A DNA stretch of 48,093 nt from Bacteroidales bacterium (GTDB taxonomy: Bacteria; Bacteroidota; Bacteroidia; Bacteroidales; Muribaculaceae): the NCBI GenBank assembly GCA_020859755.1, contig JAJBVP010000255.1:1-48093 (forward strand), given 5' to 3'. Below the pieces are notes generated by a model. It was not told the origin of the DNA. It made no database searches and saw nothing but the letters and a program-made list of their open reading frames with translations. Shown in pieces: positions 8,626-43,302 of this stretch. How positions within the stretch are numbered: the stretch's first letter is position 1; every line of letters starts with the position of its first letter. The translations under genes and the position numbers were made by a program.

Positions 8626-8872
8626 TTGCTGATTGTGTTTTTAATTGGTTTAACTGAGTTATTTAGATTCTGTATTCAGTGATGAAGCACTTTTATGTGA
8701 CAGTTTTTCAACTTGCAAAAATAAACGTTTCTGAAAGTTTAAGGAGAATTACCCCCCCCATTTTTAACTTCGGTTAACTATGATTTAACACTACGCAACA
8801 TTTCTTCTCGGTGTGGTGGAATTTATGAACAGCGGTTATGTAGATGGGGGTGGAGCGGTGTTCTTATGTGAA

Positions 8873-10246
8873 ATGGATAAGAAAAAAAGATCTATGCTTA
8901 CCTCACTGAAAAGTTATTATCAGAAATTACCGCCCGCGCCACAATTGCAGTTGCCTGAGGAGGAATTGCGACGCAAGACGCGCCGGTTGCAACTCGAGAC
9001 ATTTTTCGCTGCCGTGGTGGGCCACAGCCTGTATTACGTGTGCCGCACGACGCTCAACGTTGTAAAGACCCCCATCGTGGACGCCAACTTGTTGAACGAC
9101 GCCCAGCTGGGTATCGTAGGGTCGGCGATGCTGTTCGCCTACGCTGCCGGGAAGTTTATCAACAGTTTCATCACCGATTATTCCAATATCAAGCGGTTTA
9201 TGGCCACGGGACTGGTGTTGTCGGTGATTGCCAATGTTATAGTAGGAGCGCTTGGATTCTCGGTATCGGGAGCAGGGCTGGGCGTATCGGCCTTCTTCCT
9301 TACGTTCACCGTCTTGTGGGTGATGAACGGTTGGGGGCAGTCGATGGGCACCGCTCCGCCTATCGTGTCGCTGTCGCGATGGTTCTCTCAAAAGGAGCGA
9401 GGCACCTTCTACGGCTTCTTCAGCGCCGGGCACGGCATCGGCGAGTTCCTGTCGTTTATCATCATCGGTTCGGTGGTGGGATACATCGGGTGGCAGCAGG
9501 GTTTCTTCGCGGCCGCGTTGTGTGGCGTAATCGGCATCTTCGTGATCGTTAAATATCTCCACGACAGCCCAGAAAGCATGGGCTTGCCTCCGATTGGCGT
9601 AACCAAACAGAAGAGCGTGAAGGCAGCCCAGAAGATGGCGCTGACCAACCGCAACGTATGGTTCGTAGCCATCGCGAGCGGACTGATGTACGTGTCGCGC
9701 TACGCCATCAACGGCTGGGGCGTGCGTTATCTGGAGATAGTCAAGGGCTATGAACTGCAGGAAGCGACGTGGGTAATAGGCTTGAACGCGATGGCCGTGA
9801 TATTCGGGGCGATGAGTGCCGGATGGCTGTCCGACCGCTTGTTCGCCGGGCGACGGAATGTGCCGGCGCTGATGTTTGGCGTATTGAATACCATCGCCCT
9901 CGCATGCTTCCTCACTTCGGGGGATGCCCTATGGATCAACATCGTGGCCATGCTTATTTTCGGCTTGTCGATTGGCGGACTGATCTGCTTCCTTGGGGGA
10001 TTGATGGCCATTGACTATGCCCCGAGGATGGCGTCGGGAGCCGCTGTGGGGATGGTGGGCTTGGTAAGCTACATCTTCGCGGGAGTGCAGGACGTGATCA
10101 CAGGCCGATTGATCGAGGCTCACCACACGGTGGTCGACGGCGTGGATTACTATAATTTTCATGCGGTGTCGATATTCTGGATTTCGGCCTCAGCGCTCTC
10201 ATTCTTAGTGGCTTTGCTCGTGTGGAAAGCCAAGCCGTCTGACTAA
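8873..10246 (+). CDS. MFS transporter, organophosphate:phosphate antiporter type (GlpT/UhpT-like)
   Basis: 12-TM-like protein; SLYYVCRTTLNVVKTPIVDANLLNDAQLGIVGSAMLFAYAAGKFINSFITDYSN, GWGQSMGTAPPIVSLSRWFSQKERGTFYGFFSAGHGIGE. Start at MDKKKRSM preferred over the upstream in-frame start. Confidence 0.88.
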   Translation: MDKKKRSMLTSLKSYYQKLPPAPQLQLPEEELRRKTRRLQLETFFAAVVGHSLYYVCRTTLNVVKTPIVDANLLNDAQLGIVGSAMLFAYAAGKFINSFITDYSNIKRFMATGLVLSVIANVIVGALGFSVSGAGLGVSAFFLTFTVLWVMNGWGQSMGTAPPIVSLSRWFSQKERGTFYGFFSAGHGIGEFLSFIIIGSVVGYIGWQQGFFAAALCGVIGIFVIVKYLHDSPESMGLPPIGVTKQKSVKAAQKMALTNRNVWFVAIASGLMYVSRYAINGWGVRYLEIVKGYELQEATWVIGLNAMAVIFGAMSAGWLSDRLFAGRRNVPALMFGVLNTIALACFLTSGDALWINIVAMLIFGLSIGGLICFLGGLMAIDYAPRMASGAAVGMVGLVSYIFAGVQDVITGRLIEAHHTVVDGVDYYNFHAVSIFWISASALSFLVALLVWKAKPSD

Positions 10247-10362: not shown

Positions 10363-12924
10363 ATGAACAATGCCCCATTACTCGACACAGAGGATAAAGC
10401 AATCATCATCGGCCTACGCAAGGACGACCACAAGTGTTTCAACGACTTGTTCGCGAAATACTATCCAGGTTATTTTGGGTTTATTTTAGGAATGGTCAAG
10501 GATACTTGCGTGGCCGAGGATATCGCCCAAAACGTGTTTTCGAAAGTGTGGATCCATCGACAGTCGCTCAACCCCGAGCTGTCGATGCGATCCTATCTTT
10601 ATACCCTGGCCAAATACGAGATTTACAACCATTTCCGATTCAAATATTCCCACGTTACCGAAACAATATCCACTACAATGACCGATACCACCGCCGACAC
10701 CTACGACTTAGAAGCGCATTATTGCGTCCAAGAGATGGAAACCCAGATAATGGAAGCCGTTGACCACTTGCCCGGCAAGCGGCGCGAGGTGTTCCGTCGT
10801 AGCAGGCTCAATTTCCAGTCGGCCAAGGAGATCGCGCAATCGCTGGGAATGTCGGTGAGGACGGTTGAGAAACATATCCAATTGGCTCTACGTGACATCC
10901 GTTGTTGTCTGGCGACGTTGACCTTGTTGTTGGGAGTGGTCACAGCTACAGGCTCTGATTTCAAGGATTACACAATCGCCACCACCGACACCGAGGGAGA
11001 ATATTTCGGAGTGGCAATGGCCAACGGTTGCATCGGCTTGCTAAGCGACCGCGAGCCGTTGACGGTGAGCCAGGTGATGCTCAATCACGTGATGGACGAA
11101 AACCGTGAAGATGGCGTCAGCCGAGGTCTGCGAGGTATCAACCCATTCTGCATGAAGCTGGTAATCGACGGCGACACCGTATCGTTGGGAAAGGTTGACA
11201 ACTGGTCGCAGTCGCTCGACATGCGCCACGCTATGATCACCGACCACTATAATTATAACGGCACCGATATCTCCAGCGACACCTACGCCCTGCGTGGGCA
11301 GCCCTTTGCCGGGATCACGACGGTGAAAGTGACTCCCAAGCGCGATATAGAGCTAAGTGTTGTTAATCCTTACCGCGTTCCTGAGGAATACAGCGACACG
11401 GCGTCGCATACGTTGTCGGTAAAACTGATGTCCACCCGGTTGCCCATTCATCGCGTAAGCGGAGTGTCGAAATTGCGCAATCGCGTGGTATCGGCATCCT
11501 CGGCGATAGTGTTCCCCGAAGGGGCCCCAGTGCCGAAAATTGCCAAGGACAATTCATTCTCAGTAAAGATCCCCGCGGGGACGACACTGGAGTTCTCGCT
11601 GATCGGCGCCGTGTGCTCCGACAGAGATTTCCTTGACCCTCGCAACGAATCCGACCGACAGGTGGCAACGGTGGCCGTAAGAGGTGTCCCTGTGATGCGC
11701 GACGACCATCTGCGGCGTTGGGAGGACCTATGGCAAGGTGACATCGAAATCGTGGGCGATGACGAGGCCCAACAAGTGGCCCGCATGTCGCTCTACACTC
11801 TTTATAGCAACTGCCGTGAGGACTCGAGGTTGAGCATCACCCCATTCGGGTTGAGCTGGACCGAGTACAACGGCCACGTGTTCTGGGATACCGAGCTGTG
11901 GATGTACCCGCCGATGCTGTTGCTCAACCAAGGGATAGCTCGGTCGATGATGGACTATCGCAGCGACCGCCGGGAGGCTGCCCACCGTCGCGCGTTGGCC
12001 AACGGATACCGGGGGGCGATGTTCCCTTGGGAAAGTGACGACGAGGGTGAGGAGGGATGTCCCGTGAGAGCGCTCATGGGTGGCTTTGAGCACCATATTA
12101 ATGGCGACATTGCGGTGGCCGCGCGCGACTATTTCCGCGTGACCCGCGACACCACGTGGCTCGCCAGGGACGGATGGCCCCTGTTGCGTGACATAGCCGA
12201 TTTCTGGACCTCGCGCGTTACCCCCAACCCCGACGGCAGCTACTCAATTGTCAACGTGGTGTGCCCCGATGAATACGCCAAGGAGGTGACCGACAACGCA
12301 TTCACCAACGCCGTTGCCGCCGAGTCGCTCCGAGCCGCTCATCAAGCCGCCCAGGTGCTGGGTGTCACCCCCGACAGCCGCTGGCTCGTCATCGCCGATG
12401 GGTTGCGTATCCCCACTGTGGATGGAGTGACCGCTGAATTTGAAGGCTTTACACCCCGCCAGATCAAGCAGGCCGATGTTAACCTGATGGCTTACCCCTT
12501 GAACGTCGTCACCAATCCTGAGCAGATACGTCGCGACCTGGAGTACTATCACCCTCTTATCAACCCCAACGGCCCGGCAATGTCCTACGCTATCCTGGCC
12601 ATACTGTACTCTCGACTGGGCGACGTCGACAAGGCCAACGAGCTGTTCGTGGAGGCCTACCGACCCCACATGCGTCCCCCTTACGGGGTAATCTCAGAGA
12701 ACGCCTCCGACAACCGCGTGAATTTCGCTACTGGCGCCGGCGGCTTCCTCCAGACAATCATCAACGGTTTCGGGGGGGTGCAAGTGCAGGACATCAGCAG
12801 TGCCATGCCGATCGACTTGGTGCCATCCAAAATGCCTCGCCATTGGGAATCGCTAACAATTCGGGGACTGGGTCCTGACAGGTTAACGCTGAAGAAATCA
12901 CAAAAAGGAGCTACCTTGCGGTAA
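10363..12924 (+). CDS. ECF sigma-70 factor (Bacteroidetes family) fused to a GH65-family glycosidase/phosphorylase domain
   Basis: Residues ~1-180 are an ECF sigma factor (region 2: FNDLFAKYYPGYFGFILGMVKDTCVAEDIAQNVFSKVW; region 4: LPGKRREVFRRSRLNFQSAKEIAQSLGMSVRTVEKHIQLAL). Residues ~181-197 are hydrophobic (CCLATLTLLLGVVTATG). The rest carries GH65 motifs (HVFWDTELWMYPPMLLLN, YRGAMFPWES, HINGDIAVAARDYFRVTRD, CPDEYAKEVTDNAFTN with the expected acid Glu). One uninterrupted ORF. Confidence 0.9.
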   Translation: MNNAPLLDTEDKAIIIGLRKDDHKCFNDLFAKYYPGYFGFILGMVKDTCVAEDIAQNVFSKVWIHRQSLNPELSMRSYLYTLAKYEIYNHFRFKYSHVTETISTTMTDTTADTYDLEAHYCVQEMETQIMEAVDHLPGKRREVFRRSRLNFQSAKEIAQSLGMSVRTVEKHIQLALRDIRCCLATLTLLLGVVTATGSDFKDYTIATTDTEGEYFGVAMANGCIGLLSDREPLTVSQVMLNHVMDENREDGVSRGLRGINPFCMKLVIDGDTVSLGKVDNWSQSLDMRHAMITDHYNYNGTDISSDTYALRGQPFAGITTVKVTPKRDIELSVVNPYRVPEEYSDTASHTLSVKLMSTRLPIHRVSGVSKLRNRVVSASSAIVFPEGAPVPKIAKDNSFSVKIPAGTTLEFSLIGAVCSDRDFLDPRNESDRQVATVAVRGVPVMRDDHLRRWEDLWQGDIEIVGDDEAQQVARMSLYTLYSNCREDSRLSITPFGLSWTEYNGHVFWDTELWMYPPMLLLNQGIARSMMDYRSDRREAAHRRALANGYRGAMFPWESDDEGEEGCPVRALMGGFEHHINGDIAVAARDYFRVTRDTTWLARDGWPLLRDIADFWTSRVTPNPDGSYSIVNVVCPDEYAKEVTDNAFTNAVAAESLRAAHQAAQVLGVTPDSRWLVIADGLRIPTVDGVTAEFEGFTPRQIKQADVNLMAYPLNVVTNPEQIRRDLEYYHPLINPNGPAMSYAILAILYSRLGDVDKANELFVEAYRPHMRPPYGVISENASDNRVNFATGAGGFLQTIINGFGGVQVQDISSAMPIDLVPSKMPRHWESLTIRGLGPDRLTLKKSQKGATLR

Positions 12925-12936
12925 CTCCTTTTTTTC
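12902..12936. terminator. Bidirectional intrinsic terminator between convergent genes
   Basis: AAAAAGGAGcTACC-TTGC-GGTAaCTCCTTTTTTT: stem with one mismatch, U-run on the plus strand and TTTTT on the minus; lies between convergent stops at 12924 and 12961. Confidence 0.85.
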
Positions 12937-12960: not shown

Positions 12961-13716
12961 CTACTTTCCACTTGCGATGAGTTCTTGGGCACGGAGGGGA
13001 TTGTTGGTGGTGATATAGGTGGCTCCGTTGTCGATGCACCATTGGATGTCGTCGTCCGAGTCGACCGTCCACACGTTCAGCGGCATTCCCAAGCTACGAA
13101 ACTCGTCGATCCACTGTGGAAACTGGCGAAGGCTACCGATGTTGAAGTCGGGTCCATAACAGTCGAGCGCCACCAATTCTTCAGGAGAAACAGCTGAGAG
13201 GTAGGCCGCTTTTTGACCCGTGGTGGCTTGGAGCGCTTTCAACGCATTGGCCGAGAAGGTGATGTACATCGTGCGAGGCTCGAGGTCGCGCTCGGCAATC
13301 ATGCGGGCGATCATTCCGGCCGCCAATACCTCCTTCACGGGATCGGCGTGGGGTTTCAGCTCAAGCACAAGTCCCACTTTCAGCGGAGCCGCGGTGTCGA
13401 GGAATTGGTCAAGACGAGGCACCGGTTCACCATTGGACAACCGGGCCTTAGCCACCTCGTGGTAAGGGGTGTTCTGAATCACCATGCCATCAATCACGTC
13501 GTCGTGGTTGACCACGGGCACGTTGTCGGAGGTGAGCCACACGTCAAATTCAGTGTATTCGCAACCTATGGAGTCGGCTTTCACCAGCGACCGGATCGAG
13601 TTTTGCGCGCTCCCCTCGGTGTTCCAGTAGCCGCGATGAGCTACCACGGCCGGAGGGGTGGCATACAGTGCCAAAGAGCTAAGTGTCAGAAGAGCTAATG
13701 AGATTCTCTTTTTCAT
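12961..13716 (-). CDS. Glycerophosphodiester phosphodiesterase family protein, secreted
   Basis: Signal peptide MKKRISLALLTLSSLALYA; GDPD motifs VVAHRGYWNTEGSAQNSIRSLVKA, YTEFDVWLTSDNVPVVNHDDVIDG, LNVWTVDSDDDIQWCIDNGATYITTNNP. Confidence 0.93.
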   Translation of the reverse strand: MKKRISLALLTLSSLALYATPPAVVAHRGYWNTEGSAQNSIRSLVKADSIGCEYTEFDVWLTSDNVPVVNHDDVIDGMVIQNTPYHEVAKARLSNGEPVPRLDQFLDTAAPLKVGLVLELKPHADPVKEVLAAGMIARMIAERDLEPRTMYITFSANALKALQATTGQKAAYLSAVSPEELVALDCYGPDFNIGSLRQFPQWIDEFRSLGMPLNVWTVDSDDDIQWCIDNGATYITTNNPLRAQELIASGK

Positions 13717-19749: not shown

Positions 19750-19762
19750 CCAGCTGTAAGTG

Positions 19763-22700
19763 ATGAAATATGTTACGTGTATATTGGTAGGCGGATTGGT
19801 TGCCCTGAGCGGTAACTGCCGCGAAACGGCCAGCGAATCCACCATGGTGGATTCGCTGATGTCGGTTATGACCCTGGAGGAGAGGATTGGCCAAACCAAC
19901 TTCGGAGTTGTGGGTACGCCACTGGTCGTTGGGAGCGCCGTTGGGCTGGAAGAGGCCATTGCCCAGGGCCTGATAGGCTCGGTAGGAGGGCACGACCCTC
20001 AAGGGGCCTACAATGCCCAAAAAACCGCGGTGGAGCGCTCTCCACATGGCATACCGTTGATAATCGGCCTCGACGTGGTGCACGGCTACCGCACTACCTT
20101 CCCCATTCCCCTGGGCGCCGCATCCTCTTGGAATCTACCGCTGGTCGAGAAGGCGGCGCGCATGGCCGCGAGGGAAGCGTCGAGCTTCGGCATTTGCCAC
20201 ACCTACGCGCCGATGGTCGATATCTGCCGTGACCCTCGCTGGGGGCGAATCGCTGAAGGCACCGGTGAAGATCCTTGGTTAGGATCCCGTATGGCCGAGG
20301 CTCAGATCCGGGGCTACCAAGGCGCCCACCTCGCGGCCGATAGCACCGTGATGGCTTGCGTGAAACATTTCGCGCTCTATGGGGCCTCGGAGGGTGGCCG
20401 CGACTACAACACGGTGTCGATGGACGATGCCACGATGCACAACTATTATTTGCCTCCATATCACGCCGGGGTGCATGCCGGTGCCGGCACGGTGATGTCG
20501 TCGTTCAACGTGGTCAACGGCGTGCCGGCGACCTCCAACTCTTGGCTCCTCACCACCTTGCTGCGCGACCAATGGGGATTTGACGGTTTTGTGATTTCCG
20601 ATGCCAATTCCGTTGCCGAGACCCTCACTCACGGAACAACCTCGGGAGCCATCGACGCGGCTGTGCAGGCATTGCTTGCCGGAACCGACATGGACCTATG
20701 TAGCGGACTGTACTCAGCCTGCCTAAAGGACGCGTTGGAGCAGGGGCTTATCACCGAGGATGACATCAACCGTGCATGCCGCCGTGTACTGCTCGCCAAA
20801 GTGCGCTTGGGGCTTTTCGACGACCCTTACCGATATTTTCACGATGCGCCAGCACCTTACGAAGCCTTGACCGTTGCCCAAAAGCTGGCCGCTGAAAGTG
20901 CCGTGTTGCTTAAAAATGATGGCGTATTGCCTTTAAAATCCAATGCGAAAGTAGCGGTTGTGGGTGATATGGCCGATGCTCGCGGTGACTTACGGGGATG
21001 TTGGGCATGGAATTACGACGAACAGTTGCTACGCTCTCCCCGGGAGGCTCTCGACAGTGTGATCGGCTTGGTTTCGCCAGAACAGGCCGATGTAGTTCTG
21101 TGCATCACGGGCGAACCGGCTTCCCTCACTGGCGAGGCCAAATGCCGCGCCGACATCTCTCTGCCCGAGAACGGGAAAAGAGCGGTTGAGCATGCTAAAT
21201 CCTACGGCCGGCCTGTTGTGGCTGTGCTGCTTACGGGTCGGCCATTGGTGATACCCGAATTGGAAGCCGACCCGCAAATTTCGGCTATTTTGGTGGGCTG
21301 GCACGGTGGCACCCGAGCTTCACAAGCCTTGGCTGATGTGTTGACTGGCGTGGTGAATCCCTCGGGCCGTCTCACCTCCACATGGCCTCGCCATAACGGG
21401 CAGATCCCGTTGTATTACAACGCTTTGCCCACTGGAAGGCCATATTCCGATTTTTGGGCAACGTCCAAGTACCTCGACGTGAGCAACGAGGCGCTGTATC
21501 CATTCGGTTACGGCCTCGGTTACTCCACCGTGGAATACAGCCCTATATCCCTTTCCGCCAAGGAGATAGTGGGCGAGAAGAAGGAGGCGGAGGCCTATGT
21601 GACCGTGACCAATACGGGCAACGTTCCCCAAACCGAGGTGGTCCAGCTTTACCTGCGTGATCCTGTTGCGGATATCTCGCGCCCCGTCAAGGAGTTAAAA
21701 GGATTTCAGCGAGTGGAATTACAACCCGGGGAGAACCGTCGGGTAACATTTACGATCACCCCCGAATTATTAACGTATTACGACCCGGCAACCGGGCAAT
21801 GGCGTTGGGACGACGGTGAATTTGTGCTGATGGTCGGACCCAATTCCCGCGACCTTTGTTGCGACACGATCACGTGGCGTCACACAAATGCTTCTGCCGA
21901 GACGCAAGCCTTGCGTCGCCATATCCACGAGGAATTGCCTAAGTCGGTGCGTACCCTCAGCGAGGACACCGCAGGCCGTTTCGGCCTGCGGTATCCCTAT
22001 AGCGTGCCGTGCGTGCGCGACGGATTCCAGGACATGTATTATTGGGACACTTACTTCACCAATCTGGGGCTGCTAATCGATGGCGACACCGAGCAGGCGC
22101 TCAATAATTATCGGGATATCATCTCGTTAATCGACCGGTTCGGCTACATGCCCAATGGCAGCAACGAGGCTCTGGTTGATCGCAGTCAGCCCCCTGTTGC
22201 CGCCTTGATGGCTCGTGATCTGCTTGCCTATGGAGTTGATACCATGTCTGTTATCGCCACTTTACCCGCACTTGAGCGCGAATACCAATTTTGGATGACC
22301 CAGCGTATCGCTCCCAACGGGCTCAACCGCTACGGCCACAACAGCTCGGATGACACCCTTGACGGCTTTTACGGCGCAATCACCACTTACCGTTTCCTCC
22401 AGCAACCCGACCCCTCGCTCACGCGCGAGCAGCGAGTAGCGGCCGGAGCGCATCTGTTGGCCGAGGCTGAGAGTGGTTGGGATTTTAATCCTCGTTTCCA
22501 CCATTGCTGCATGGATTTCAACCCTGTGGATCTCAATGCATTAATGTATGCCTCGGAGTTGACTCTGGCTGATTTGTGCTACCTTGCTGGCCGTCAGGCT
22601 GATATCCAGAAGTACCGAAATTCCGCCAATAAGCGGCAAAAGCTTTTTAATCGCTATTGTGTTGACCCAAAGACACATATCCCATATGATTACGATTGGC

Positions 22701-23134
22701 GTAACAGCAAGCGTGGCACCTTGCTTTCCTCGGCTATTTTCTTCCCGTTATATACTGGGCTGGTCGACAAAGCCACAGCCAAAGCGGTGTCGCAAGCTCT
22801 TGACCGCCTCGAGCTACCCTACGGGCTGCCCGCTTGCGAGAAGGGTGTGCGCGATGTTACCTATCAGTGGGATTATCCCAATTGCTGGGCTCCCCTGTTG
22901 GTGATGGCCGTGGGAGGACTCGAAAAATACGGAAACTCCACCGAGGCCAAGCGCTTGGCCCAAAAATACTTGGATACAGTCACCCGCATGTACCGCGAAT
23001 CGGGCCAACTTTGGGAGAAATACAATGGCGAGACCGGCAACCATGACGCGGCCGACGAGTATGCCAATATCGGCAACTTCATGGGCTGGACCGCGGGTGC
23101 TTGGCTATATTGTTACAATTATCTATATCAATGA
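19763..23134 (+). CDS. Bimodular glycosidase: N-terminal GH3 (BglX-like) and C-terminal GH37 trehalase-like domain
   Basis: GH3: RDPRWGRIAEGTGEDPWLGSRMA, CVKHFALYGASEGGRDYNTV, GFDGFVISDANSV, Fn3-like domain. GH37: RDGFQDMYYWDTYFTNLGLL, AESGWDFNPRF, QWDYPNCWAP, LWEKYN...DEYANIGNFMGWTAG. Confidence 0.9.
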   Translation: MKYVTCILVGGLVALSGNCRETASESTMVDSLMSVMTLEERIGQTNFGVVGTPLVVGSAVGLEEAIAQGLIGSVGGHDPQGAYNAQKTAVERSPHGIPLIIGLDVVHGYRTTFPIPLGAASSWNLPLVEKAARMAAREASSFGICHTYAPMVDICRDPRWGRIAEGTGEDPWLGSRMAEAQIRGYQGAHLAADSTVMACVKHFALYGASEGGRDYNTVSMDDATMHNYYLPPYHAGVHAGAGTVMSSFNVVNGVPATSNSWLLTTLLRDQWGFDGFVISDANSVAETLTHGTTSGAIDAAVQALLAGTDMDLCSGLYSACLKDALEQGLITEDDINRACRRVLLAKVRLGLFDDPYRYFHDAPAPYEALTVAQKLAAESAVLLKNDGVLPLKSNAKVAVVGDMADARGDLRGCWAWNYDEQLLRSPREALDSVIGLVSPEQADVVLCITGEPASLTGEAKCRADISLPENGKRAVEHAKSYGRPVVAVLLTGRPLVIPELEADPQISAILVGWHGGTRASQALADVLTGVVNPSGRLTSTWPRHNGQIPLYYNALPTGRPYSDFWATSKYLDVSNEALYPFGYGLGYSTVEYSPISLSAKEIVGEKKEAEAYVTVTNTGNVPQTEVVQLYLRDPVADISRPVKELKGFQRVELQPGENRRVTFTITPELLTYYDPATGQWRWDDGEFVLMVGPNSRDLCCDTITWRHTNASAETQALRRHIHEELPKSVRTLSEDTAGRFGLRYPYSVPCVRDGFQDMYYWDTYFTNLGLLIDGDTEQALNNYRDIISLIDRFGYMPNGSNEALVDRSQPPVAALMARDLLAYGVDTMSVIATLPALEREYQFWMTQRIAPNGLNRYGHNSSDDTLDGFYGAITTYRFLQQPDPSLTREQRVAAGAHLLAEAESGWDFNPRFHHCCMDFNPVDLNALMYASELTLADLCYLAGRQADIQKYRNSANKRQKLFNRYCVDPKTHIPYDYDWRNSKRGTLLSSAIFFPLYTGLVDKATAKAVSQALDRLELPYGLPACEKGVRDVTYQWDYPNCWAPLLVMAVGGLEKYGNSTEAKRLAQKYLDTVTRMYRESGQLWEKYNGETGNHDAADEYANIGNFMGWTAGAWLYCYNYLYQ

Positions 23135-38837: not shown

Positions 38838-38867
38838 CACCCGATAATGTGAAATTTCGGGGGTGGC

Positions 38868-38876
38868 TACCTTTGC
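38868..38876 (+). promoter_or_regulatory. -7 box (TACCTTTGC) of the NAGPA gene
   Basis: TAnnTTTG consensus upstream of the ATG at 38908. Confidence 0.65.
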
Positions 38877-38907
38877 AATGCATAGCTACACCCCTAACAT
38901 TATCACA

Positions 38908-41900
38908 ATGCGTCTAAAAGAAACGATTCTTCTTACCTTTGTCACCTTGTGTGGCATTCAGGGAACACAGGCCGAAAGTTTCACGGCCGGTGGTGAGACC
39001 TACACTTACACTGAGAAACAAACGCAGCAACTCAACTCGGGAGTCGTGCACCGTCGTCTACGGTTCACGGCTCCCACGGCTTTGAATGTGCAGATCGTGG
39101 AAGTCGACTTGACCAACTCCAACGTGCGTGTCGAGACGACGTTGGCCTCCGACAAGATGTTTGCCACACAGACGTTGCCCAACCGTTACTCGGCCCTTAA
39201 GTCGGCCGGCCGAAAGCCGTTGGTGATCCAGAACGCCTCGTTCTGGTCAATGTCGTCTCAATCCACCGATGCCGGCACCTGGGCCACCACATGCCCTCTG
39301 GGAGGCTTGATGCAGAACCAAACTATCGTCACCGAGACCAACTATAGCTCCGACACGTGGGTAGGCGGTCCGACGGCTCAAGGCGTGTTCGGCGTTGGTG
39401 CCGGCAAGGCAATCGCAGGCCATTACCAAACGTATATGCGACTGATGTGTCCCGCACGATGGGGCACATCCGAAACCCAAAACATCATCACTATCGAGGA
39501 GGTCAACCGCTACTGCCACAACGGTCGCGCCGCCGCGTTCAACTCCAATTTCCCCTCCGACCGCGACATCAAGGTGATCAACGCGTCAACTATGCCCAAC
39601 ACGCAGATGGCCAACGGCGAGGGTATCTATATATTCTGCTCGCTTAAATCGGGTTGCCACGAAGGTTACAACAAGTGGAACAAGTACATTGTAAAGGCCA
39701 TTACTCCTGACGCCACCTCGGGTTACCGCGGAAGCTACGACCTCGTTTTGGTAGGTACCCAAACAGCCAAAACCATCATGTCGACCCTACAAGTGGGCGA
39801 CGAGGTGCAAACCAAATACTACTGGCACGTCACCTCGGGCGACGTCAACGTGCCTATTGAGGGTATCGACAACGTGTGGGCCGGCCATCAAGTGGCGATG
39901 CTAAACGGCACCGTGCAGACTCCCGACGATTATGGCTCCGACGTCTACTCCCGTTCGGCCTACGGTGTAAGCTCCGACGGCAAGAAAATGATAATGTGTG
40001 TGATCGACAAGTCGACCGACGCCACCTACGGCACCTCCAACGGATGCAACACCTCCAGAATGAGCTACATCATGCAGCACTGGGGAGCCTCGAGCGTAAT
40101 CTCCTGCGACGCCGGTGGCTCGGCCCAGATGGTGATCAACGGCTCCTATGTCAACACCCCCAGCGACCAGCGCGGAATATGCGCCTCCGTTGTCGTTTAC
40201 GACGAGGCACAACCCGACTTCCCCGAGGATGTTGAGGAGAGCGACATCTCCACCTCCGGAGTTACTAGCTACGACGCATCCTCAGTGAGCGGCACATCCA
40301 ATCCCTTCTGCTACAATTTCTCCTGTACCACCTCCGACGAAGGCGTCACCTTCAAGTGGACCAACACCGCCGCGCTCAACGCCGCCACCTTCCGCATTAT
40401 CAGCGACGACAACGCCACCTCCCTCAAAACCTGGACTCTTGCCGACTCCTACCTCACAGCCGGGAACAAGACCTTTAAGCTCGCCTGGGACGAAATCCTC
40501 GACGACGCCAAGGGAATTGTCGTCGGCACCAAATACTCCTGGGGTATCACCGCCAAATGTCCGGCCCAAACAGGCGTGGTGAAATTCAAGGAACGCAAAT
40601 TCTACTACCCGCAAACGGTGGAAACCGTCAACGACACCGACGATCCCTATTACGGTTACATAATTACCGCCGAAGGTCGTGCGCCCAAATCAAGCGGTTA
40701 CTGGTCTTACTCCCGCGGCGGCCAAGGCGTGTATCTCTTCACTCCCCGCAACCTCGGCTCCGTCACCTACATCAACGGCACCGACACCACCTACTGCTTC
40801 CGTCAAGGCCTTACCGACACCAATTTCACCTGCGATGCCGGCGGCACTGGCTCCAACAACGGCTCCGTGCCACGAAAGATACGCCGCACCGACGACGGTC
40901 GCATCTTCTTCACCTCCGAGTCCAATTACTGCGCTCCCCTATACGAGTTCCCCACGCTCACAAAGCTCATCACCAAGAACGCCAAGTTCACCCAAGTGGC
41001 CGGGGGCCCTCTGGACAGTTCCCTTTGGTACTGGACCGACTCCGACGGCAACTTCTCCATGGCACAAAACGTGGGATTTGACGTCAAGGGCTCCGGCGAT
41101 GACCTCACCCTCCTTATGCTTGGCGTTGACAACAATATGCTCTCCTCCAAGAACCAAACCGGCGTGCATTGCAACACCTACAAGATAGGAACCGCTACCA
41201 AATGGAGCGGCAAAACTCCCACATCCACCTTCAGCCCCTATAACAAGAAAATCCTTGGCACATCCTACTTCGCCAACGTCGAGATCGACTCCAAGGGCAA
41301 CTACTGGCTGTGCCAAAGCCAATTAACTCCCACAGCCGATAAGCCTTCGCTCATCTGTTGCTCATCGGGTGGCACCGAGCGCTTCCGCAACTTCTCGATG
41401 GTGTGCGGCGGCGGTGGAATCCGCTTCAGCCCCAACGGCAAGCAAGTGGTGATCACCTCCTCCGAGACCACGTTCTCGGTTTACGACGTCACCTACTCGT
41501 CGGGCGTGCCCACGCTCACCGAAAAATATCGCGTTAGCCACGGCCTTGGCACCAACGTTACCGACTACGCCTGGGATCTCGCCGGCAACATCTACGCCGT
41601 CTCCACCACCAACAAGAAGCTGGCTGGTTTCGCCATGCCCCGCGAGGCCAACACCAACATCACCACCAAGGCCCGCGAAGCTTACCACTTCACTGCTCAG
41701 GCCGCTCCGGTAGTGACTACTCCCACTCTGTCGGCCACTGTTGACGAAATCGAGATTGAAGCCGAGGTGGGTGAATCGGCTAAAGCCACTTTCACCCTCA
41801 AAGGCTCCGACCTTACCGCCAACGCAACGCTCTCCCTTTCGGGTACAAACAAAGCTATGTTCTCAGTTTCCCCGACTTCAGTCACTGCCGCCACGTCGGT

Positions 41901-43302
41901 AAGCAAAACCGTTACCGTAACCTATACTCCCACGGCAGCCGGCACCCATACGGCCACCCTCACAATAGCATCCACCGGTGCCACTTCCCTGAAAATTACA
42001 TTGACCGGTATCGGCACCGTCACTCCCGAGCCGGAGCCTGACCCTGATCCCGATCCCACGCCTGTCACCTATAACGACAAAGTGTCAGGCCTCGACGAGA
42101 TATGGCTCTACTCCACCACCCGTGGCAACGTGGCCGACGCCTCCGATTGGTTCAATATTGAGTCCCTCCAAGATTACTCGCGCTCGCTGGCCTTCAACGA
42201 CGGCAAGCTCTACGTGGCCAACAACAAAACGTGGTCGGATACCCCGTCGATCAACATCCTCAACGCCTATACGGGCCAAAAGACCGGCTCGCTGAGCGTC
42301 GAGGGTACCACCGCCACCGGCTCTACCTGCCGCCTGAGCGACGTGAAGATTTTCGACGGTAAGATTATCGCTTGCAACCGCGTGCTTGATACCCACATTC
42401 TCAAAGTATACATTTGGGACACCGATGCCTCCACCCCGCGTGAATTGCTCAGCGACGCCACCCATGGCCAGCTCTCTCTGGGAGGCCAGCTCTACGCATC
42501 GGGCACCCTCGAGGACGGTTACCTTTGGTTCACCAACGGCTATTCAATCCTGCGTTACAAGGTGACCGACGGCGTAGCTTCCTCCGATCCACAATTGATA
42601 GCTTTGGGGAAAGTGTGCGGTGGCACCAACTTCACCGACGGTATCTTTGTAGAAAACGATGGCACATTCTGGGTGAACGGCGACAAATACGCTCCCACCC
42701 ATTTTGAAGCCGATGGCTCCCTATTGGCCCGCATGGAGTTGACCGCTCTGGGTGGCAGCCATGCCGCCGAAGCTACCGCCGTGGCCGCGATACCATTTGG
42801 CAATCGCCGCTACCTGGCCGCTACCACCTACGGCAACTCCAATGAAAACGGCTTGGCCGACGGCGCGCTTGTGCTGGCCGACATCACCGATGGCGAAAGC
42901 GATGTCACCGAGGCAATCGGCCTTTACCCCTCCGAGGGCCTTGGCTCCACTCGCAACACCAACTTTATCACCTCCCTTGCCTACGAAACCACCTCGGAAG
43001 GTAAACTCAATCTGTGGGTGCTGGTACCCATGCAAGGCGTCGCCTATTACCAATTTGACGGCTCGCAGGATGCCACCTCGGTGAAATCCCTCCTTGCTCC
43101 CACCTGGCAACTTTCTTGCCACAACAAGGTGATTACGACATCACTCCCGGCCCACCGCATCGAGGTATACTCATCGATGGGTCAACTCCTCCTTGTCGGT
43201 CGTGGCGACCAGCTCGACGCCAGCTCTCTGCCTCACGGCCTCTATATCGTAAGAGCCGTGGCCGAGGGAATGCCCGCACTCACTTCCAAGATAATATTGT
43301 AA
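38908..43302 (+). CDS. Phosphodiester glycosidase (NAGPA-like) with propeller-like domains and C-terminal sorting-like domain
   Basis: PLVIQNASFWSM, KKMIMCVIDKSTDATYGTSNGCNTSRMSYIMQHWGASSVISCDAGGSAQMVINGSYVNTPSDQRGICASVVVYDE match the NAGPA family pattern; acidic/Pro linker EPEPDPDPDPTP; C-terminus HRIEVYSSMGQLLLVGRGDQLDASSLPHGLYIVRAVAEG. Confidence 0.85.
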   Translation: MRLKETILLTFVTLCGIQGTQAESFTAGGETYTYTEKQTQQLNSGVVHRRLRFTAPTALNVQIVEVDLTNSNVRVETTLASDKMFATQTLPNRYSALKSAGRKPLVIQNASFWSMSSQSTDAGTWATTCPLGGLMQNQTIVTETNYSSDTWVGGPTAQGVFGVGAGKAIAGHYQTYMRLMCPARWGTSETQNIITIEEVNRYCHNGRAAAFNSNFPSDRDIKVINASTMPNTQMANGEGIYIFCSLKSGCHEGYNKWNKYIVKAITPDATSGYRGSYDLVLVGTQTAKTIMSTLQVGDEVQTKYYWHVTSGDVNVPIEGIDNVWAGHQVAMLNGTVQTPDDYGSDVYSRSAYGVSSDGKKMIMCVIDKSTDATYGTSNGCNTSRMSYIMQHWGASSVISCDAGGSAQMVINGSYVNTPSDQRGICASVVVYDEAQPDFPEDVEESDISTSGVTSYDASSVSGTSNPFCYNFSCTTSDEGVTFKWTNTAALNAATFRIISDDNATSLKTWTLADSYLTAGNKTFKLAWDEILDDAKGIVVGTKYSWGITAKCPAQTGVVKFKERKFYYPQTVETVNDTDDPYYGYIITAEGRAPKSSGYWSYSRGGQGVYLFTPRNLGSVTYINGTDTTYCFRQGLTDTNFTCDAGGTGSNNGSVPRKIRRTDDGRIFFTSESNYCAPLYEFPTLTKLITKNAKFTQVAGGPLDSSLWYWTDSDGNFSMAQNVGFDVKGSGDDLTLLMLGVDNNMLSSKNQTGVHCNTYKIGTATKWSGKTPTSTFSPYNKKILGTSYFANVEIDSKGNYWLCQSQLTPTADKPSLICCSSGGTERFRNFSMVCGGGGIRFSPNGKQVVITSSETTFSVYDVTYSSGVPTLTEKYRVSHGLGTNVTDYAWDLAGNIYAVSTTNKKLAGFAMPREANTNITTKAREAYHFTAQAAPVVTTPTLSATVDEIEIEAEVGESAKATFTLKGSDLTANATLSLSGTNKAMFSVSPTSVTAATSVSKTVTVTYTPTAAGTHTATLTIASTGATSLKITLTGIGTVTPEPEPDPDPDPTPVTYNDKVSGLDEIWLYSTTRGNVADASDWFNIESLQDYSRSLAFNDGKLYVANNKTWSDTPSINILNAYTGQKTGSLSVEGTTATGSTCRLSDVKIFDGKIIACNRVLDTHILKVYIWDTDASTPRELLSDATHGQLSLGGQLYASGTLEDGYLWFTNGYSILRYKVTDGVASSDPQLIALGKVCGGTNFTDGIFVENDGTFWVNGDKYAPTHFEADGSLLARMELTALGGSHAAEATAVAAIPFGNRRYLAATTYGNSNENGLADGALVLADITDGESDVTEAIGLYPSEGLGSTRNTNFITSLAYETTSEGKLNLWVLVPMQGVAYYQFDGSQDATSVKSLLAPTWQLSCHNKVITTSLPAHRIEVYSSMGQLLLVGRGDQLDASSLPHGLYIVRAVAEGMPALTSKIIL

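Follow-up and report, generated by a model that had tools for sequence, protein, structure and literature searches.

A single open reading frame (ORF) in a Bacteroidales genome joins a FecI-type ECF sigma factor in frame to a GH65 glucosidase across a hydrophobic junction, and this fusion was seen in one species only. The ORF (10363..12924, + strand) lies in the stretch of DNA considered here, referred to as the window, which comprises 48,093 nucleotides and is contig 175 of the 294 contigs in a 3.62-Mb assembly. It starts with ATG and runs over 853 codons with no internal stop. A sequence-only reading of the window had described one 853-aa ORF containing a complete ECF sigma factor followed by GH65, and this was borne out by the ORF and by the domain matches. 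Our analysis confirmed the 853-aa fusion ORF as real and uninterrupted, and the join looks real. The explanation that we favor, with confidence somewhat short of even, is a species-restricted fusion in which one hydrophobic segment would act both as the tail of the sigma factor and as the signal of the enzyme, would be inserted N-in and then cleaved by signal peptidase I.

The sigma part (residues 1-180; 10363..10902, +) is FecI-like and belongs to the TIGR02985 family, with an intact FecI-type ECF sigma domain at residues 9-183. Its TIGR02985 score was 132.1 bits against a cut-off of 126.4 (136.4 bits in the genome search), and both Pfam sigma regions are present, region 2 at residues 29-92 and region 4 at residues 128-178. 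As seen in the sigma alignment (A3), the conserved positions of both regions are retained. Among the 11 TIGR02985 matches in its own assembly, the window sigma is the sole one above the cut-off. The closest sigma relatives, which are 36-40% identical to it and 192-203 aa in total length, all have region 4 followed at once by a short hydrophobic tail, 13-19 aa long (e.g. LRDLRARLNPFLFFLILFFNI and LKTLRKDISSGLMSLLTLMAGWF). When two models were used to search the whole assembly, neither FecR (PF04773) nor FecR_C (PF16344) was found above cut-off, and ordinary FecI/FecR control thus appears to be absent from the genome of the window. For the sigma relatives in loci L124 and L125, FecR is encoded in the same locus. 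The sigma gene there lies beside genes for an EEP phosphodiesterase, GH97, FecR and SusC, with GH31 also found in L125; both loci are alpha-glucan-type PULs with close sigma relatives.

The GH65 part (residues 203-843; 10969..12891, +) is a complete alpha-1,2-glucosidase domain, its C-terminal end included. It scored 197 bits with PF03632, matched FjGH65A (PDB 7FE3) at 1.8e-159 with 536 bits, and scored 719 bits over residues 201-843 with NF053734 (kojibiose hydrolase), which is below the curated cut-off of 800. The catalytic residues of FjGH65A are the general acid E472 and the general base E616 (PMC8626586). According to the PDB 7FE3 alignment and our GH65 alignment of 29 relatives and the window (A2), these correspond to E637 (12271..12273, +), which is found in CPDEY, and to E779 (12697..12699, +). 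Both glutamates are invariant across the 30 sequences, so that the acid motif CPDEY, which had been pointed out as expected and kept, is indeed in place. Likewise retained is the proline-alanine pair (P738/A739) found in place of the phosphate-binding serines. As the general base is kept and the phosphate-site serines are replaced, the GH65 part should be a hydrolase rather than a phosphorylase, by prediction. A glucosyl-rhamnose phosphorylase was considered and rejected, as the phosphate site is absent and the general base is present (PMC8626586). The equivalents of W391/E392 of FjGH65A are also found. T407 of the FjGH65A +1 subsite, a threonine in at least 90% of the relatives, is replaced in the window by M572 (12076-12078), which may alter this subsite, and the window motif is DEY, as compared to DEW in the FjGH65A type.

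Between the two domains lies the junction, RDIR-CCLATLTLLLGVVTATGS-DF, in which the hydrophobic segment CCLATLTLLLGVVTATGS spans residues 181-198 (10903..10956, +), the position taken by the tails of the sigma relatives and by the signal peptides of the GH65 relatives. In A2, each of the 29 GH65 relatives begins with a short signal peptide, and window residues 179-197 align with its hydrophobic and c-regions; the separate GH65 start codon and the basic n-region are absent in the window, while the rest of the signal peptide is aligned. A joint alignment of fused, sigma and GH65 proteins (A1) was left out, as the short sigma proteins were poorly placed in it. To compare hydrophobicity, we used the best 19-residue Kyte-Doolittle mean (KD19), with 13 sigma-TM-barrel proteins, described below, serving as anchor controls. 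The junction gave a KD19 of 1.71, inside the range of the GH65 signal peptides (1.62 +/- 0.37, n=29) and just under the lowest of the anchors (2.14 +/- 0.34, range 1.73-2.71, n=13). In addition, two candidate signal peptidase I sites (10942..10953, +), one after A195 (VTA/TG) and the other after G197 (ATG/SD), agree with the -3/-1 rule when inspected by eye. In the AF2 model, region 4 and the hydrophobic segment form a single helix (residues 165-197), followed by a low-confidence break at residues 196-199 and then by a confidently modeled GH65 part; the sigma part, which the alignment rows leave uncovered, was for that reason modeled with low confidence. Judged on its hydrophobicity and on these two motifs, the junction looks like a signal peptide and not like a typical anchor. 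The sequence-only reading had taken it for a positive-inside signal anchor and had proposed a check of its membrane and signal-peptide character. That interpretation was supported in part: the positive-inside, hydrophobic nature of the segment holds, while its match to the sigma tail and the GH65 signal peptide, its KD19 and the cleavage-like motifs make an anchor or sensor role less likely.

The distribution of the fusion was examined in about 850 Bacteroidales genomes, comprising those of 60 relatives, 397 from the family and 394 from the order. No second fused copy was found among them, and none was found in the GTDB species genomes among the best 80 loci listed. In the same genomes, relatives of the GH65 subfamily are separate ORFs of ~650-730 aa, apart from fragments at contig ends, and the sigma relatives are separate short ORFs. 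The same holds for the ~150 best TIGR02985 matches in 247 family genomes, where all other open frames were of 166-281 aa, as compared to 863 for that of the window. Locus L048, in which sigma and GH65 genes lie close together, was considered as a fused match and rejected, as GH65, sigma, a ~340-aa gene and SusC are separate genes in that order; genome G332 also has both genes. The other two genomes of the genus are without the GlpT and GH65 genes and yielded only distant matches to the glycerophosphodiester phosphodiesterase (GDPD) that follows the fused gene. The search thus revealed no relative with the same architecture, an outcome that the sequence-only reading had itself listed among those that would refute its proposal.

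According to the explanation that we favor, the final codons and the stop of a FecI-type sigma gene would have been lost, along with the start codon of a gene for a secreted GH65 alpha-1,2-glucosidase and the charged beginning of the signal peptide of that enzyme. A single hydrophobic segment would then do double duty as the C-terminal tail of the sigma factor and the signal sequence of the enzyme. The fused chain would insert N-in/C-out, and signal peptidase I would most likely cut after A195 or G197, yielding GH65 in the periplasm and, in a one-to-one ratio to it, a native-length sigma factor that keeps its usual hydrophobic tail. With a cut after A195, the sigma factor would measure 195 aa, within the 192-203 aa of the relatives, and the other product would be mature GH65. 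The origin by deletion, membrane insertion, cleavage and sigma activity are what we infer here, as are all other steps that would follow translation of the fused product. It should be considered that, with a cytoplasmic domain of 180 aa ahead of it, a signal sequence may be cleaved inefficiently or stay uncut, and that the sigma part could be inactive.

Of the alternatives to this fusion with a shared, cleaved segment, the least probable in our estimation is an artefact of assembly or consensus, in which two genes of a metagenome-assembled contig became one through a mis-join or through bases left out. The division of the assembly into 294 contigs, the representation of the species by one genome and the absence of the fusion from the relatives searched would fit such an error. 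Other observations speak against it. The DNA of the fused gene occurs as one copy in its own genome, neither the sigma part nor the GH65 part has a separate copy there, and the join is free of repeats, long ones included, by which an assembler might be misled. A chimera formed through a duplicated gene was accordingly rejected. A frameshift error parting two genes was rejected as well, since in the other reading frames near the junction there is no sigma tail and no GH65 start hidden behind a stop. A chance ORF was dismissed, as both halves align in full length to their families and as the other open frames of the ~150 best TIGR02985 matches do not exceed 281 aa. The sigma part has a GC content of 48.8% vs 58.4% for GH65, and the rise across the join is gradual. 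We discounted this difference as a sign of a mis-join, as the sigma genes of relatives (L121, L123, L124 and L125) are similarly offset, being ~4-11 points below their neighbors. The two genes meet exactly at corresponding hydrophobic segments. An assembly error behind the fusion is therefore unlikely.

Two further alternatives accept the ORF, and we consider each of them unlikely, to the same degree. The one closest to the sequence-only reading, which had suggested a membrane-tethered sigma factor with a glycosidase as its sensor, is that the junction remains an uncut signal anchor holding sigma at the inner membrane. The periplasmic GH65 would then sense or process a glycan, proteolysis or a conformational change would free sigma, and the tether would replace the missing FecR. 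The lack of FecR or FecR_C above cut-off in this genome, set against the FecR found with the sigma relatives in L124 and L125, is in line with such a replacement, and so are the described precedents ECF52 (SCO4117) and IutY (PMC5826349, PMC8999054) and the sigma-TM-barrel proteins of the same family, which suggest that a TM segment right after region 4 is used. The segment itself argues the other way, being short, with hydrophobicity of the signal-peptide range just below that of the anchors and with peptidase-like motifs. An anti-sigma domain is absent, and among the genomes searched the architecture was seen in one species only. The more specific proposal that the periplasmic GH65, on engaging its substrate, governs whether the junction is cut and thereby whether sigma is released, in place of FecR, we hold to be slightly less probable still. 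According to the other alternative, the ORF is real and GH65 is made from an internal start, or the sigma part is a mere carrier, with sigma having no regulatory role. An in-frame ATG (M163; 10849..10851, +) lies 18 codons before the hydrophobic stretch and could give GH65 a plausible long signal peptide with a long n-region; in A3, the closest relatives have L or I at this position. The singleton distribution of the fusion and the lack of a FecR partner in the genome are compatible with such a bypass. Against it, the sigma part is free of stops across 180 codons, retains its conserved positions in regions 2 and 4 and is the only TIGR02985 match in the genome above cut-off.

The proteins that served as anchor controls are worth describing in their own right. 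These sigma-TM-barrel ORFs, 480-670 aa long, encode an ECF sigma factor whose region 4 runs directly into a TM helix; a linker then leads to an apparent outer-membrane barrel. An example is found in L180 (1757-3541, +), and others are found in L182-L197 and among the matches in G616 and G557. Assignment of the barrel is based on weak Pfam matches in L180 and on OMP-like C-termini in those that were read. Matches with E <= 1e-30 occur in 51 of the 247 genomes of the bacterial family, while in the order outside this family, matches to the sigma and to the barrel mostly fall in different ORFs, much as in Das/Dma pairs (PMC13088901). The sigma-TM-barrel protein looks like a dual-membrane-spanning sigma factor with no anti-sigma domain, and such ORFs suggest that membrane-tethered sigma factors exist in this bacterial family. 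We found no description of the sigma-TM-barrel family in the open literature.

The surroundings of the fused gene provide some indication of the substrate. Upstream lies a gene for a GlpT-like MFS transporter (8813..10246, +), and downstream, in convergent orientation, that of GDPD (12961..13716, -). A terminator-like hairpin flanked by A/T runs (12902..12933) is found between the end of the fused gene and GDPD, although in our scan such sites were no more numerous than in shuffles; a promoter scan of the window was uninformative. GH65 is accompanied by GDPD and GlpT in two other genomes as well (L122 of G332 and L131 of G341). The window further encodes RhaA, an FGGY sugar kinase, GH106 and two alpha-L-rhamnosidase-type proteins (PF17389), so that the rhamnose context proposed earlier proved correct, together with two SusC/SusD pairs, a hybrid two-component regulator, an N-acetylmuramoyl-L-alanine amidase, a 1124-aa protein with GH3 and trehalase-family (PF01204) domains (19760-23134, +) and a 1479-aa protein with a NAGPA phosphodiester-glycosidase domain and weak Cep192/ASH matches (38863-43302, +). 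In the wall polysaccharide of Streptococcus mutans, a polyrhamnose, rhamnose carries alpha-glucose at position 2, the site of glycerol phosphate (PMC11754754). The gene list suggests that the locus uses rhamnan cell-wall polymers with glycerol phosphate and alpha-1,2-glucose. On Gram-positive wall polymers of this kind, GDPD would remove the glycerol phosphate, after which GH65 would remove the alpha-1,2-glucose. Considering its neighbors, the enzyme probably takes alpha-1,2-glucose off rhamnan or teichoic-type polymers that bear glycerol phosphate.

Should the fused product be made, it would be an instance from nature of one hydrophobic element serving both a transcription factor and an enzyme that is secreted, and sigma output would be coupled to export of the enzyme. 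The fusion thus raises the question of whether signal peptidase I, and not an anti-sigma cascade, could release a sigma factor, and it points to a possible role for the hydrophobic C-terminal tails of these Bacteroidetes FecI-type sigma factors. Our search of the open literature found no report of a sigma-GH fusion, which should be regarded as weak evidence of absence.

When compared to known systems, the window sigma resembles the Bacteroidetes FecI-type PUL sigma factors (TIGR02985) in the layout of regions 2 and 4, in its above-cut-off score and in the hydrophobic C-terminal tail at the same place. Those are, however, separate proteins of ~195 aa, found in two loci with FecR, EEP, GH97 and SusC, whereas the window sigma is fused to GH65 with FecR undetected. 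The GH65 part shares with the FjGH65A-type kojibiose hydrolases (NF053734; PDB 7FE3; PMC8626586) both catalytic glutamates, W391/E392 and the lack of a phosphate site, yet it differs in having lost its own start codon, in scoring below the curated cut-off and in bearing M572 for T407 and DEY for DEW. The nearest described membrane-tethered sigma factors are ECF52 and IutY, and the anti-sigma domain of both is missing here. ECF52 SCO4117 has a sigma-zinc finger-TM-carbohydrate module order (PMC5826349) and, like the fused protein, has its sigma factor followed by a membrane segment and then by a carbohydrate-related domain that is extracytoplasmic. Unlike it, ECF52 proteins contain a zinc-finger anti-sigma domain, a proline-rich linker and a carbohydrate-binding module rather than an enzyme, and are confined to Actinobacteria (PMC5826349); the fused protein has no Pfam match to a zinc-finger anti-sigma domain or a carbohydrate-binding module. 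In IutY (ECF243), sigma is likewise joined to a membrane and extracytoplasmic part, but is fused to its own anti-sigma domain and freed by Prc/RseP (PMC8999054), and Pfam gave no match to a FecR-like anti-sigma domain in the fused protein. Dma proteins, also from Bacteroidota, share the order of a cytoplasmic transcription-control part, a TM segment and an extracytoplasmic part, but have an anti-sigma domain and a beta-barrel. The cytochrome b/c1 polyprotein encoded by Bradyrhizobium fbcH is a single ORF product that signal peptidase cleaves at a signal sequence in its interior. Among bacterial polyproteins divided in such a manner, it comes closest as a precedent, although cytochromes b and c1, unlike a sigma factor and a glucosidase, are respiratory subunits and both membrane associated.
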